A stretch of DNA of 64,000 nt, from assembly GCA_947629175.1 (NCBI GenBank), contig CANRCT010000010.1, positions 1 to 64,000 on the forward strand. Direction: 5' to 3'. Position numbers and translations under genes: made by a program. Below the pieces are notes generated by a model. It ran no database searches, had not been told where the DNA came from, and was given only the letters and a program-made list of their open reading frames with translations. Below are positions 2,922 to 27,726 of this stretch, in pieces (position 1 is the stretch's first letter; the number at the start of each line of letters is the position of its first letter). Source of the DNA: an uncultured Muribaculaceae bacterium. Lineage in GTDB: Bacteria; Bacteroidota; Bacteroidia; Bacteroidales; Muribaculaceae.

Positions 2922-3090
2922 ATTCCTGTTTTTGATAGTTAATTATAGATATGTATAAAAAGCGACGGATAAAAATGATCCTGTATATTGTCCCCGGATG
3001 GTCTTACATAAACTACCGGTAAAGTTATATTTTTGATATTATTGCCAGTTTAATGGCGAAAAAGTTTAACCGAATTGTAAAAACGTGTAC

Positions 3091-3100
3091 GGGGGGGGGG
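3091..3100. repeat. G10 homopolymer tract
   Basis: Ten consecutive G residues in an otherwise AT-rich non-coding stretch, about 170 bp upstream of the secreted-protein gene on the minus strand and about 250 bp upstream of the Abi_2 promoter on the plus strand. Long G runs are prone to slippage. The rest of 2922-3286 holds no gene that I can support. Confidence 0.8.
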
Positions 3101-3286
3101 TACAGTTGTGTCTTCGAATAGCGACAAACCGCGTCTGGCCGGCAAAAATTGCGAGATCGCGATTGAGTATAATTATATTATATTCGATGAATATTTAATA
3201 AATATCAGGAGTTGCCGGAGTGCTGCAGGCCTTAATGATTACCGGCGGCCGCATCAGAAACTAAAGGCGGGATGGTATCTGTCGTT

Positions 3287-3314
3287 TCAATCTATGTTTC
3301 TCAATCTATGTTTC
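3287..3314. repeat. Perfect 14-bp tandem duplication
   Basis: The unit TCAATCTATGTTTC occurs twice back to back (3287-3300, 3301-3314), about 30 bp upstream of the -33 box of the Abi_2 promoter. It could be a simple duplication or a tandem binding site; the sequence alone does not decide. Confidence 0.85.
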
Positions 3315-3344: not shown

Positions 3345-3376
3345 TTTGGCTTTTCCCAAAAAAATCACTACCTTTG
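3345..3376 (+). promoter_or_regulatory. Bacteroidetes sigma-ABfr-type promoter of the ncRNA/Abi_2 unit
   Basis: TTTG at 3345-3348, a 20-bp spacer, then TACCTTTG at 3369-3376: a full match to the Bacteroidetes -33/-7 consensus. Transcription should start near 3382, which excludes the longer reading frame beginning at 3322 as the protein start. Confidence 0.8.
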
Positions 3377-3381
3377 TACCA

Positions 3382-3433
3382 TTAGAACCTGCCAAGCCTC
3401 TTTACAATGCTCAAATCGGCGGGTCGTTTTTTT
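3382..3433 (+). ncRNA. Putative small RNA upstream of the Abi_2 gene (abiF-RNA-like), ending in an intrinsic terminator
   Basis: Between the promoter at 3345-3376 and the ATG at 3445 there is a short segment ending in a hairpin (5' arm 3385-3393, GAACCTGCC; 3' arm 3418-3425, GGCGGGTC; one bulged A and one G-U pair) followed by G and seven T (3427-3433). This is the form of a Rho-independent terminator and would release an RNA of about 50 nt before the coding region. Conserved structured RNAs (the abiF RNA motif) are known just upstream of AbiF/Abi_2 genes, so I infer this is one. It could instead be an attenuator in the Abi_2 leader. I cannot check the covariance model. Confidence 0.5.
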
Positions 3434-3444
3434 ATTATACATAC

Positions 3445-4344
3445 ATGAAATCAAGTTTCGCCAAGCCGTATTCCTCTCCTGAACAAATCGTTCAAATACT
3501 CAAATCACGTGGTATGCTTATAAAAGATGAGCATAGAGTGGAGAGTTATCTGATGAACATTGGCTATCATCGTCTGTCGGCATACATCTACCCATTCTAT
3601 AAAAGTCCCAAGAGTGAGTTGGTACTGAAAGAGTGTACAACTTTTGAGCAAGTGCTGACACTCTATCGCTTTGACAAGAAACTGCGCATTCTCCTTTTCA
3701 ATGAGATAGAGAAAATAGAGGTTGCCATTCGCAGCGTATTGGCAAACATCGGATGTCAAGATTTGGAAGATAAGTTTTGGATAACAAAACCCGAATACTT
3801 TGCCAGTGCGGATAAGTTTAACCAAACATTGGCAATCATAGAAAAGGAATTGGCATCAAGTAAGGAAGATTATATTGAGGATTTTCGACAGAATTTCATT
3901 GAGATATATCCACCTGCATGGATGATAACAGAAGTTTTGTCTTTTGGGAACCTAAACTATATCTATTCTAACATTTCCAGCAACCAACTGATGAAGCGTA
4001 TTGCCGGTTATTTCGGTCTGAAGCCACAGGTATTCACATCGTGGTTGACCGTGCTTGCCAACTTGCGCAATATGTGTTGTCATCATGCAAGAATTTGGAA
4101 CAGGGTTTTTATGCTCAATCCGGCAGAGCCACGAAAAACCGCAAACTCATGGATTGACACTTCAAAAGTAGATAAAAAGAAAATTTTCTATCGTTTGTGT
4201 ATAGTCCGCTATTTCCTTTCATCAGTGTCTCCCAACAATAATTTCAACGAAAAAATTTCTGCGTTGTTGGCTGATTTCCCATCAATAGATATTGCAGCAA
4301 TGGGCTTTCACCGTGATTGGGCAAATGAAGATTTATGGAGATAA
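3445..4344 (+). CDS. Abi_2 family (AbiD/AbiF-like) abortive-infection protein
   Basis: A 299-residue protein of the Abi_2 family (PF07751). Family hallmarks are visible: an N-terminal SYLMNIGYHRLSAYIYPF block, a central EKIEVAIRSVL block, and near residue 210 the sequence RNMCCHHARIWNR, whose R-N-x-x-x-H fits the HEPN RNase motif. It is predicted to be a cytosolic RNase-like toxin acting in phage defence. The ATG at 3445 is chosen because the promoter at 3345-3376 starts transcription after the alternative upstream start, and the protein then begins like other members (SSFAKPYSSPEQIVQILKSRG). The gene is much more AT-rich than its neighbours and stands alone between unrelated genes, suggesting horizontal acquisition. 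It lies just after a putative terminated RNA, the arrangement known for AbiF RNA/toxin pairs. Family assignment is firm, activity is inferred. Confidence 0.88.
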   Translation: MKSSFAKPYSSPEQIVQILKSRGMLIKDEHRVESYLMNIGYHRLSAYIYPFYKSPKSELVLKECTTFEQVLTLYRFDKKLRILLFNEIEKIEVAIRSVLANIGCQDLEDKFWITKPEYFASADKFNQTLAIIEKELASSKEDYIEDFRQNFIEIYPPAWMITEVLSFGNLNYIYSNISSNQLMKRIAGYFGLKPQVFTSWLTVLANLRNMCCHHARIWNRVFMLNPAEPRKTANSWIDTSKVDKKKIFYRLCIVRYFLSSVSPNNNFNEKISALLADFPSIDIAAMGFHRDWANEDLWR

Positions 4345-4533: not shown

Positions 4534-7362
4534 TTACTCTGCGGGATCGAGGGTGACTACGATGTAGCTGCCTTTGTCGAGCATCTGGCGGGCAAATGCC
4601 TTGACGTCGTCGACAGTGATGGAGTTGATCGTGGCGATGTTGTCGTTGAAGGTGTCGATGCCGGTGCGGTGCCATGTGTTGAGGGCTCCGAGCCAGTTGC
4701 CGTTCTTTTCCTTGCCTTCGGTGAAGTTTTTCACCATGTATTCCTGCACGCGTGCGAGTTCTTCCGGCTTGATGTCGGTGGCGAGCAGGTCGAACTGCTC
4801 GCGGATGATGCCGAGCACCTTGTCCTTAAGCTCCGGCTTCATGGGGAATGCCGACTGGATGACTACGTTCTGGGGCGTGCCGAGATCCATGCTGCCGTAG
4901 GCGCCGATGGAGTAGACCGCTCCCTCTTTCTCGCGGACGATGTCGTTGAGGCGGCGCGAGAGTATCTGCGAGGCTACGGAGGTGAGCTGCGCGTTGCGGC
5001 TGTTGTCGGGGAGCGTGGCTACTTCGGTGACAGCCACGTAGGTCTGCGGTGTCTCCATCTTGACGGTATAGTTGTCGGCGCGGCTTCCTTCGAGGAAGAG
5101 GAGGGCCGGATCATACTCCCTGACTTTCTTCACGGCTGTGGCGGGATCGCCGGGGAGGCTGGCTATGTACTGCTCTACGAGCGGACGGAGCTTCTCCACG
5201 TCGACGTTGCCCACGAAGGTGAATGTGAAGTCGGCTGCGTTGGCGGTCATGGCGTGGCAGATCTCGATGATCTGGGCGCGGTCGGCCTTCTCGACGTCGC
5301 TGACCGTCATTACGGCAGCGCGGGGCGAGCGGTCGCCGTAGAGGGTCTTGACGGCATTGACGTTGAACTGGAACGCGGGATTGGCCTCCTGATTGCGGAT
5401 GGCCGAGGCCGAGGTCTTCTGGAGGGCGGCAAATTCATCCTCCGTGAAGTTGATGTCCTTGAAGTTCATGTAGATCAGCTCCATAAGCGTAGGGAGATCC
5501 TTGGGGGTGGTGTTGCCGCTGAGGGTGCGGCTGAAGGCGCTCCATCTCACGCTGACTCCGGCCTGCTTGCCGGCAAGGTATTTCTGGAGATCCATGTTGG
5601 AGTAGGTGCCGAGCCCGTGCTGCTGCAGTGCGTCGCCCATGAAGAGGAGCGAGGGAGCGTATGAGTCGCCGAACTTGGGCGCGTGGCCGCCGTTGGCCAC
5701 GGCCGAGAAGAGTATCTCGTCGTCCTTGAAGTTGGTTTTTTTCACCACTACCTTGGCGCCGTTGGAGAGGATCCATTCAATGGTGCCCCACTGCGGATTG
5801 TCGACCGTCTTGACGATCGTGCCGGGCTTGGGCATCTCCGGAATGAGGGGCTCGGCCTTCACTTCGTCGACAAACGGCTCGATGGTCTCGCCGTCGACGG
5901 CCGCAAGGGCGTCGGCAAATTCCTGTTCGGTGGGATACTTGCCCTCGGCGTTATCCGGGAGGAGGGCCAGGAGCACGCGGTTGTCTGAGGTCTGCACCAT
6001 CGACATGGCCTGGTTGATCTGGGCCACCTGCACGTTCTGGGCTATCATCTGCACCATGGGCCACTCAGCCTCGATGCCGGGAATGGGATCGCCCTTGATG
6101 AAGTTGTCGACATATTCACTGACGTAGCGCGATGACTCGCACTGCTTGCGGTTGTTGAAGGCCTTCTCCATGCGCGAGAGGTACTCGCTGCGGGCGCGAT
6201 CATACTCGCTGACGGTGAATCCGCCGCGGATGGCGCGCAGGAGCTCGCGATAGGCTGCGGCGAGCGCCTTGGGATGGTCGGCGTCCTTAGGCATGGCGAA
6301 GACGTCGAGGGCATCCTTGGTCTGCGAGATGAAGAACTCGCCCATCGAAACCTGTGCGGCTGCGAAGGGGGCGTCGGGTTTGGCGGCGATGTCGGCCAGA
6401 CGGGTGTTGAGCATGTCGGTGATCATCGCCTCGACATATTTCTGGGCGTAGAATGCCGGAGTGTTGCGGAGCTCCTTGGGGAACGCGTCGGTCTTGATCA
6501 TGAGCTGGAGGAGGGAGTTCTGCTGCTCCTTGTCGTGACCGATGGCGTAGATTGTGCCCTTGTTGTCGCTGACGGGATAGTAGATGCGCTCCTTGGGGTC
6601 GGCGGGCATCTCGATGTCGGAGAACATCTCCTTGATCTTGGCCTCTATGCGGTCGGGGTCGATATCGCCCACCACGATTATGCCCTGCAGGTCGGGGCGG
6701 TACCATGTCTCATAGTAGTCGCGCAGAGCCTGATAGGGGAAGTTGTCGACCACCTCCATGGTGCCGATAGGCAGACGGTGGCCATACTTCTCGTCCTGAT
6801 AGATGACGGGGAGCAGCTTCTCGAGTATGCGCATCTGGCCTACGTTGCTCTGGCGCCACTCCTCGTGGATGACGGCGCGCTCTGCGTCGATCTCCTCGGG
6901 GAGGAGCAGCAGGTCGTTGGCCCAGTCGTGGAGTATGAGCAGACAGGAGTCCTGCACGCCGGTGCGGGCCACGGGCACGTTGTTGATGTTGTAGATCGTG
7001 TAGTCAAATCCGGTGCGTGCATTGAGGTTGTAGCCGAATTTCACTCCTACCGATTCGAGGTAGTTGATCAGATCCTTGCCTGGGAAGTGGGTAGTGCCGT
7101 TGAAGCACATGTGCTCAAGGAAGTGGGCGAGGCCGGCCTGATTGTCCTCCTCCTGCATGGAGCCCACTTTCTGGGCTATGTAGAAGTCGGCCTGACCTTT
7201 GGGGTACTCGTTGTGACGGATGTAGTAGGTGAGCCCGTTGGGCAGCTTGCCTATGCGCACTTCCTTGTCGACCGGAAGCTGCGGCATCTCCTGCGCCTTG
7301 GCGGCCACTGCGGGAAGCAGGGCGGCGATCAGCAGCGATGCGAGGCATTTCATGATTTTCAT
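4534..7362 (-). CDS. M16 family zinc metalloprotease (pitrilysin-like, two-repeat)
   Basis: A 942-residue exported peptidase. After a signal peptide (cleavage near residue 24, AKAQ) comes an active M16 domain with the inverted zinc motif HFLEH at residues 80-84 and a downstream E-rich third-ligand region (EEIDAERAVIHEEW). The second half is the inactive M16 repeat usual in full-length proteins of 900-1000 residues. The predicted role is degradation of oligopeptides in the periplasm or at the outer membrane. The substrate is not visible. It ends at its own terminator and is 85 bp downstream of the NhaC-like gene, with no coupling. An ATG three codons further in (7353) is an equally good start. 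Confidence 0.93.
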   Translation of the reverse strand: MKIMKCLASLLIAALLPAVAAKAQEMPQLPVDKEVRIGKLPNGLTYYIRHNEYPKGQADFYIAQKVGSMQEEDNQAGLAHFLEHMCFNGTTHFPGKDLINYLESVGVKFGYNLNARTGFDYTIYNINNVPVARTGVQDSCLLILHDWANDLLLLPEEIDAERAVIHEEWRQSNVGQMRILEKLLPVIYQDEKYGHRLPIGTMEVVDNFPYQALRDYYETWYRPDLQGIIVVGDIDPDRIEAKIKEMFSDIEMPADPKERIYYPVSDNKGTIYAIGHDKEQQNSLLQLMIKTDAFPKELRNTPAFYAQKYVEAMITDMLNTRLADIAAKPDAPFAAAQVSMGEFFISQTKDALDVFAMPKDADHPKALAAAYRELLRAIRGGFTVSEYDRARSEYLSRMEKAFNNRKQCESSRYVSEYVDNFIKGDPIPGIEAEWPMVQMIAQNVQVAQINQAMSMVQTSDNRVLLALLPDNAEGKYPTEQEFADALAAVDGETIEPFVDEVKAEPLIPEMPKPGTIVKTVDNPQWGTIEWILSNGAKVVVKKTNFKDDEILFSAVANGGHAPKFGDSYAPSLLFMGDALQQHGLGTYSNMDLQKYLAGKQAGVSVRWSAFSRTLSGNTTPKDLPTLMELIYMNFKDINFTEDEFAALQKTSASAIRNQEANPAFQFNVNAVKTLYGDRSPRAAVMTVSDVEKADRAQIIEICHAMTANAADFTFTFVGNVDVEKLRPLVEQYIASLPGDPATAVKKVREYDPALLFLEGSRADNYTVKMETPQTYVAVTEVATLPDNSRNAQLTSVASQILSRRLNDIVREKEGAVYSIGAYGSMDLGTPQNVVIQSAFPMKPELKDKVLGIIREQFDLLATDIKPEELARVQEYMVKNFTEGKEKNGNWLGALNTWHRTGIDTFNDNIATINSITVDDVKAFARQMLDKGSYIVVTLDPAE

Positions 7363-27537: not shown

Positions 27538-27726
27538 TTGTAATAATAAAATTCATGCCCGGGCGTCGCGTCGCGCTAAAGCCGAGCATCCATTCGCTGG
27601 GGGAGATGATGGAAGGTGCGGTTTTAGCATTTTTTCAAGTGGTTGCAAGCAGCCAAATTTTTCCACTCTGTCGCATTGTTCCGGTGAGCGCTCTGTCGAG
27701 AAGCCCGTGGCATCGGTTTGCGGCTG

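Follow-up and report, generated by a model that had tools for sequence, protein, structure and literature searches.

Toxins of the AbiF type paired with an RNA antitoxin have been reported for two systems, RCd22/AbiFCd (PMC12373285) and PbAbiF/AbiFr (PMC12737573). The Clostridioides difficile RNA RCd22 contains two abiF motifs and is reported mostly to end before the toxin gene; its removal raised abiF transcripts 17-fold, it neutralized AbiFCd in cis as well as in trans and co-purified with the toxin, and substitution of R202 and H207 in AbiFCd abolished toxicity (PMC12373285). PbAbiF is described in the same paper as a homodimer with two RNA copies that is inactive as the R210A and H215A double mutant (PMC12373285), and PDB entry 8VZ6 is PbAbiF with its RNA (PMC12737573). 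The abiF RNA motif, the toxin–antitoxin function, the structure and the link to Cas13 are already in print. The unit that we analysed is in itself ordinary, being one more example of the published AbiF type, and the novelty ascribed to it in the initial annotation was overstated, the type having already been described. Its sequence details were confirmed, and the part worth following is a sister class of RNA.

By reading of the sequence, the plus strand of the window (the whole stretch of DNA analysed, 64,000 nucleotides) carries, in this order, a promoter pattern, an RNA hairpin, a run of seven T and the ATG of an AbiF gene. The promoter, identified from sequence and conservation at 3346–3376 (+), consists of TTTG (3346–3349) and TACCTTTG (3369–3376), which we take to be the Bacteroidales −33/−7 pattern; this agrees with the promoter originally placed at 3345–3376. 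After a gap of 11 nt comes the abiF RNA motif RF03085, a putative RNA antitoxin at 3388–3424 (+), assigned on the covariance model, upstream conservation and covariation. The covariance-model search that the initial annotation had proposed as a check gave 57.8 bits against a cut-off of 37 (E = 3.5e-8; cmscan over the whole 64-kb window), directly upstream of the gene at 3445 and on the same strand; the hairpin claimed at 3385–3425 is therefore real, with its limits corrected to those of the motif. Two Rfam matches in the window exceeded their cut-offs, the second being a SAM-II riboswitch (RF01726) elsewhere, at 27614–27672 (−; 61.7 bits). The hairpin was the sole RF03085 match in the 2.94-Mb genome, with 150 of 1,420 first-look candidates scored. 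The T7 tract (3427–3433, +), which to judge from the sequence and the conserved T run probably forms the terminator end of the short RNA, ends 11 nt before the ATG at 3445, just as had been described. In the upstream intergenic sequence we also observed a run of ten G (3091–3100) with GTAC on both sides (3087–3103) and, just upstream of the promoter, two copies of a 14-bp perfect direct tandem repeat (3287–3314).

The gene (3445–4344, +) encodes a 299-aa protein that Pfam, PDB and PADLOC matches assign to the AbiF/AbiD family of HEPN toxins. Abi_2 (PF07751; E = 6.9e-51, 173.6 bits, cut-off 25.6) alone exceeded its cut-off among the five matches that Pfam gave up to E 1, PADLOC identified the protein as AbiD (E = 7.8e-66), and residues 4–299 aligned with PDB 8VZ6 (E = 2e-94). 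The RNxxxH motif that had been noticed in the protein is R208-N-M-C-C-H213 (4066–4083, +), a HEPN catalytic motif of the form R-x4-H that aligned with R210/H215 of 8VZ6, and the Abi_2/HEPN assignment stands. A mechanical open reading frame call opens at TTG 3322, upstream of the promoter; we rejected this start because translation from it would run through the promoter and the RNA, and close relatives mostly start at an ATG matching 3445. The covariance model, the catalytic pair and the two published AbiF systems support the RNA-antitoxin/HEPN-toxin reading first proposed, and we hold with considerable confidence that this is a one-gene, one-RNA toxin–antitoxin unit of AbiF type. Its attribution to a gut Bacteroidales is consistent with the named relatives.

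The unit lies between a 436-aa open reading frame without a Pfam match (1611–2921, −) and an M16 peptidase gene (4534–7362, −), and its GC content is 0.38–0.39 compared with 0.58–0.62 in the M16 gene and about 0.45–0.53 to the left. In 11 same-genus M16 loci we found no AbiF and no left neighbour; seven of these loci have 1,500 bp of flank, and four (L133, L134, L137 and L138) end too near the gene to be informative. Absence at these loci does not establish an empty integration site. A phage origin of the unit was also rejected, the best phage match having 29.4% identity. It is somewhat unlikely that the unit is a selfish or stabilizing module belonging to a mobile element and not a phage-defence system. 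Proteins 84–90% identical are spread over Bacteroidaceae, Prevotellaceae, Muribaculaceae and Rikenellaceae, less similar relatives were found on plasmids (up to 52.8% identity) and in phages (up to 29.4%), and the unit is AT-rich and absent beside M16 in all seven same-genus loci with 1,500 bp of flank, all of which would fit such a module; however, the five neighbouring open reading frames scanned contained no mobility family (two match no Pfam family), selfish and defence roles are compatible, and phage resistance is reported for lactococcal AbiD/F in the discussion of PMC12373285.

Folding of the single window RNA was no better than that of shuffles (z = −0.84; 39 of 200 shuffles did as well). 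A generic sigma-70 scan, which does not cover other promoter types, did not call the promoter, and a generic terminator scan did not call the hairpin, whose loop exceeds the length that the scan permits. We dropped the fold energy as evidence for its z value, and both scans as negative and unsuited, so the case for the RNA is that of the covariance model and conservation. Given the weak fold and the negative terminator scan, termination at the T tract may not be strong.

The window protein found 240 relatives, 80 of which were kept to assess conservation. RF03085 exceeded its cut-off just upstream of the gene in 76 of the 80; the misses were L035, L038 (a stretch of N within the RNA motif), L058 (5′ arm replaced) and L061. 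With the window and five second copies, the 76 make 82 RNAs, which we call class 1 (a minus-strand abiF match in L082 was left out). TAnnTTTG lies 10–12 nt upstream in 80/82, compared with 48 of 1,600 random 45-nt stretches; TTG stands 17–25 nt before it in 75/82, a figure without a control; and at least four consecutive T occur within 16 nt behind the hairpin in every one of the 82. The second copies lie farther upstream in five of the 80 relatives (L069, L076, L078, L084 and L086), and those of L069, L084 and L086 have a TAnnTTTG of their own, which favours a role in trans. Further abiF RNA copies were seen behind the gene on a plasmid (L187:1572–1631) and elsewhere on the other strand (L082:427–463, −).

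Covariation was measured on 27 of 32 distinct class-1 sequences, after removal of L057, L075 and L080 (insertions) and of L073 and L081 (38 nt), with a structure that includes two loop pairs added beyond that of Rfam. Across the 27, 95.9% of cells pair. Both sides change in 4 of 11 pairs, a number attained by 16 of 500 shuffles; the covariation score was reached by 0/500 shuffles and the number of pair types by 134/500. One of the four doubly changing pairs, that of columns 15–19, is an extra loop pair outside the Rfam structure (U–A in 22 sequences, C–G in 5). Invariant columns number 18 of 37. In the 3′ bulge, the window has CAAAUC before GGC, and 26 of the 82 RNAs have CAAAUGU before GC. 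The abiF RNAs at L057:2899–2965 and L075:2899–2965, before AbiF genes, contain 30 extra apical-loop bases, so the loop tip seems tolerant of insertion.

Pfam places Abi_2 at four sites in the genome: the window, contigs C39 and C42, and a weak one on C60. The C39 paralogue is 38% identical to the window AbiF and has the layout of the window unit, with the same promoter, a hairpin of different sequence (L089:1448–1484, equal to C39:12262–12298), a T run and an ATG; no Rfam abiF match was found at this locus at E up to 10. A search with the C39 protein at E 1e-60 or better gave 26 places, that of C39 itself among them, in 25 of the order's 393 genomes, and 24 of these places have, by eye, a hairpin of the C39 type (class 2), the other two, L109 and L113, being class 1. 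A first MAFFT alignment of 23 distinct class-2 hairpins left several outer stems out of register, and a covariance model, R1, was therefore built from the 13 that aligned cleanly (L106 trimmed by one base at each end; one misplaced gap remains). In these 13 of 23 distinct hairpins, 94.4% of cells pair and both sides change in 6 of 11 pairs; the covariation score was reached by 0/500 shuffles and the number of pair types by 5/500, and sliding the partners lowered pairing to 34–43%.

R1 recovered 21 of the 24 class-2 loci at E < 1e-3, missing L102, L111 and L114. TAnnTTTG was present 9–13 nt upstream in 19 of 21 class-2 RNAs, and a run of at least four T followed in 21/21. When R1 by itself was searched against 395 genomes of the class, it found 16 places, and the 14 genomes that hold them had supplied no sequence to the model (G388 was already known from the C39-protein search). 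Thirteen of the 16 directly precede an AbiF reading frame, which in two cases is broken across two frames; these reading frames were recognized with an HMM of ten AbiF proteins and not with Pfam. The other three (L120, L122 and L123) have no recognized AbiF gene behind the RNA. L122 has a second similar-looking hairpin about 40 nt behind its RNA. The fast search with R1, in which 16 of 1,013 candidates were scored, missed the window's own genome; given the C39 locus directly, R1 found the hairpin at 32.4 bits. Rfam recognition of class 2 was poor: when 17 class-2 loci were searched with RF03085 at E up to 10, one exceeded the abiF cut-off (L093, a hybrid with a class-1 loop), five fell below it (L096, L103, L104, L105 and L107) and eleven gave no match. 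These graded scores indicate that the classes intergrade and form one RNA family in the wide sense. Our literature search found no paper on the class-2 RNA; that search did not take in Zilberzwige-Tal et al., of whose covariance models two are named in PMC12804078 (AbiF5_iter3.CM and diverse_rna_xinsi.CM, the latter called diverse), and class 2 may already lie inside these models. A literature search for expression data on Bacteroides abiF brought up one paper, to judge from its title a general review. The C42 Abi_2 gene (L003:1474–2457) has neither a class-1 nor a class-2 RNA upstream; by reading of the sequence, it is preceded by a 401-aa transposase-like open reading frame.

An order-wide Pfam census identified 48 Abi_2 places in 37 of 295 genomes at E 1e-15 or better. 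We counted 42 near-full-length genes, one with two internal stops, and excluded six partial ones. Class 1 was found at 9 of the 42, class 2 at 22, a hairpin by eye only at three (L168, L114 and L169) and no RNA at eight (L170, L180, L003 and L182–L186); 11 of the 22 class-2 genes and the window class-1 gene were in the seeds of the models that found them. Six of the genes without an RNA, L003 and L182–L186, have lower Pfam scores and are C42-like by eye. The RNA is not universal in the Abi_2 domain family. Five plasmid relatives were also examined: a Phocaeicola plasmid has class 1 (63.4 bits), a Bacteroides fragilis plasmid class 2 (41.2), cyanobacterial and alphaproteobacterial plasmids gave weaker RNA matches, and an Acinetobacter plasmid gave none. 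On the B. fragilis plasmid pBFS01_1 (L188:463–1479), the annotated Abi start is upstream of the RNA (527–564), which the annotated gene therefore probably spans.

In a tree built from 86 proteins, class 1 forms one side of a branch with support of 100/100, a split whose cleanness is partly due to sampling, since rows were gathered through two queries and the class-2 model; the Pfam census is less biased than this sample. Class 1 needs one change on the tree compared with 26.3 in shuffles, and class 2 needs two. Midpoint rooting puts class 1 inside class 2, although this root serves only to draw the tree, whose rows are unevenly sampled. Class 1 here comprises 50 of the 80 relatives, the window, L109 and L113; L038, L058 and L061 were labelled class 1 despite a masked, damaged or unseen RNA, and the class-2 label of L102 and L111 was assigned by eye. 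Left out were L097, which has internal stops; L118 and L130, whose gene is broken across two frames; the partial L115; L125, which is at the place of L090; L114, a twin of L111; and L120, L122 and L123, which have no gene.

The window thus contains the promoter pattern, RNA motif, gene and catalytic residues, in a conserved layout. By analogy with the published systems, the short hairpin RNA very probably holds the RNA-cutting toxin in check. We propose that a single promoter would give a hairpin RNA some 50 nt long, spanning approximately 3383–3433, and that the T tract would stop most transcripts, so that free abiF RNA builds up and little toxin mRNA is made (control in cis). Read-through would give AbiF, a dimeric HEPN ribonuclease, each monomer of which would be bound by the same hairpin and kept inactive (control in trans); because the T tract lies directly behind the abiF hairpin, one hairpin would be both antitoxin and attenuator. 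If the supply of RNA fell or the RNA were titrated, for example on phage infection, free AbiF might cut RNA and growth would stop; this trigger and the phage-defence role are our guess. It is from homology that the short RNA would be expected to exist and neutralize the toxin, and the pair to act in phage defence; synthesis and termination of the RNA, its binding to the protein and toxicity we infer by analogy.

It is distinctly unlikely that the short RNA is instead cut from the mRNA by AbiF itself and not formed by termination at the T tract, and its antitoxin role would then be unchanged. AbiF is reported to cleave and process its cognate AbiFr (review, PMC12737573), RCd22 has its main 3′ end 8 nt short of its terminator stem (PMC12373285) and the hairpin in the window does not have the form of a canonical terminator, but the T runs behind all 82 class-1 and all 21 class-2 RNAs are fit for termination, and transcription in C. 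difficile was concluded to stop mostly at the terminator (PMC12373285). That the hairpin is only a cis-acting attenuator or riboswitch-like leader, setting the AbiF level without acting on the protein, is very improbable: it does lie between promoter and start codon, and RCd22 reduces abiF expression in cis (PMC12373285), but the loop and bulge are conserved past the needs of a terminator (the 18 invariant columns), second RNA copies exist farther upstream, the protein tree and RNA class agree, and two relatives have reported RNA–protein complexes (PMC12373285, PMC12737573).

Both RNA classes share an architecture of outer stem, one-base step, inner stem, 11–12-nt loop, 3′ bulge and T tract. 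We suggest tentatively, as a reading slightly more doubtful than secure, that Bacteroidia AbiF toxins have at least two classes of RNA antitoxin with one architecture and different loop and bulge, that RNA and protein class are inherited together, so that the two RNAs may be antitoxins without cross-action in one cell, and that class 2 is the broader and perhaps older source of the RF03085-type RNAs of Bacteroidia. One genome holds three states, with class 1 in the window, class 2 on C39 and neither RNA on C42, a combination ready for testing whether RNA antitoxins of this family act only on their own toxins. Such a test would inform ideas of how guide RNAs could have arisen from antitoxin RNAs in the ancestry of Cas13. 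Annotators might also benefit from the class-2 alignment, class 2 being commoner than class 1 in the census (22 compared with 9 of 42).

Among known systems, type III units of the ToxIN type resemble the window unit in having an RNase toxin with an RNA antitoxin upstream; they differ in that the antitoxin of ToxIN is a repeat array, whereas the window has a single RNA unit with one RF03085 match, and its protein matched no ToxN-type toxin in Pfam up to E 1. With Cas13 (type VI CRISPR) the window AbiF shares the HEPN fold, and Cas13an HEPN domains are reported in one clade with AbiD/F (PMC12165695); Cas13 is recognized by two HEPN domains, whereas the window AbiF has one HEPN/Abi_2 stretch in 299 aa. 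RCd22/AbiFCd is like the window unit in having an abiF motif upstream on the same transcript as an Abi_2/HEPN toxin, in the order promoter, RNA, terminator and gene (PMC12373285). RCd22 has two motifs and a separate terminator hairpin in an RNA of about 88–132 nt, and lies in a prophage (PMC12373285), whereas the window has one motif in a predicted RNA of about 50 nt, with the T run right behind the hairpin itself. The PbAbiF/AbiFr pair of a Prevotellaceae bacterium (8VZ6; Zilberzwige-Tal et al.) is alignable with the window protein over residues 4–299 and shares its R/H pair. Subgroups of class 1 differ in the 3′ bulge, which is CAAAUC before GGC in the window and may in PbAbiFr be of the CAAAUGU form before GC; the one short RNA per monomer reported for PbAbiF (PMC12737573) would be a further likeness to the window unit.
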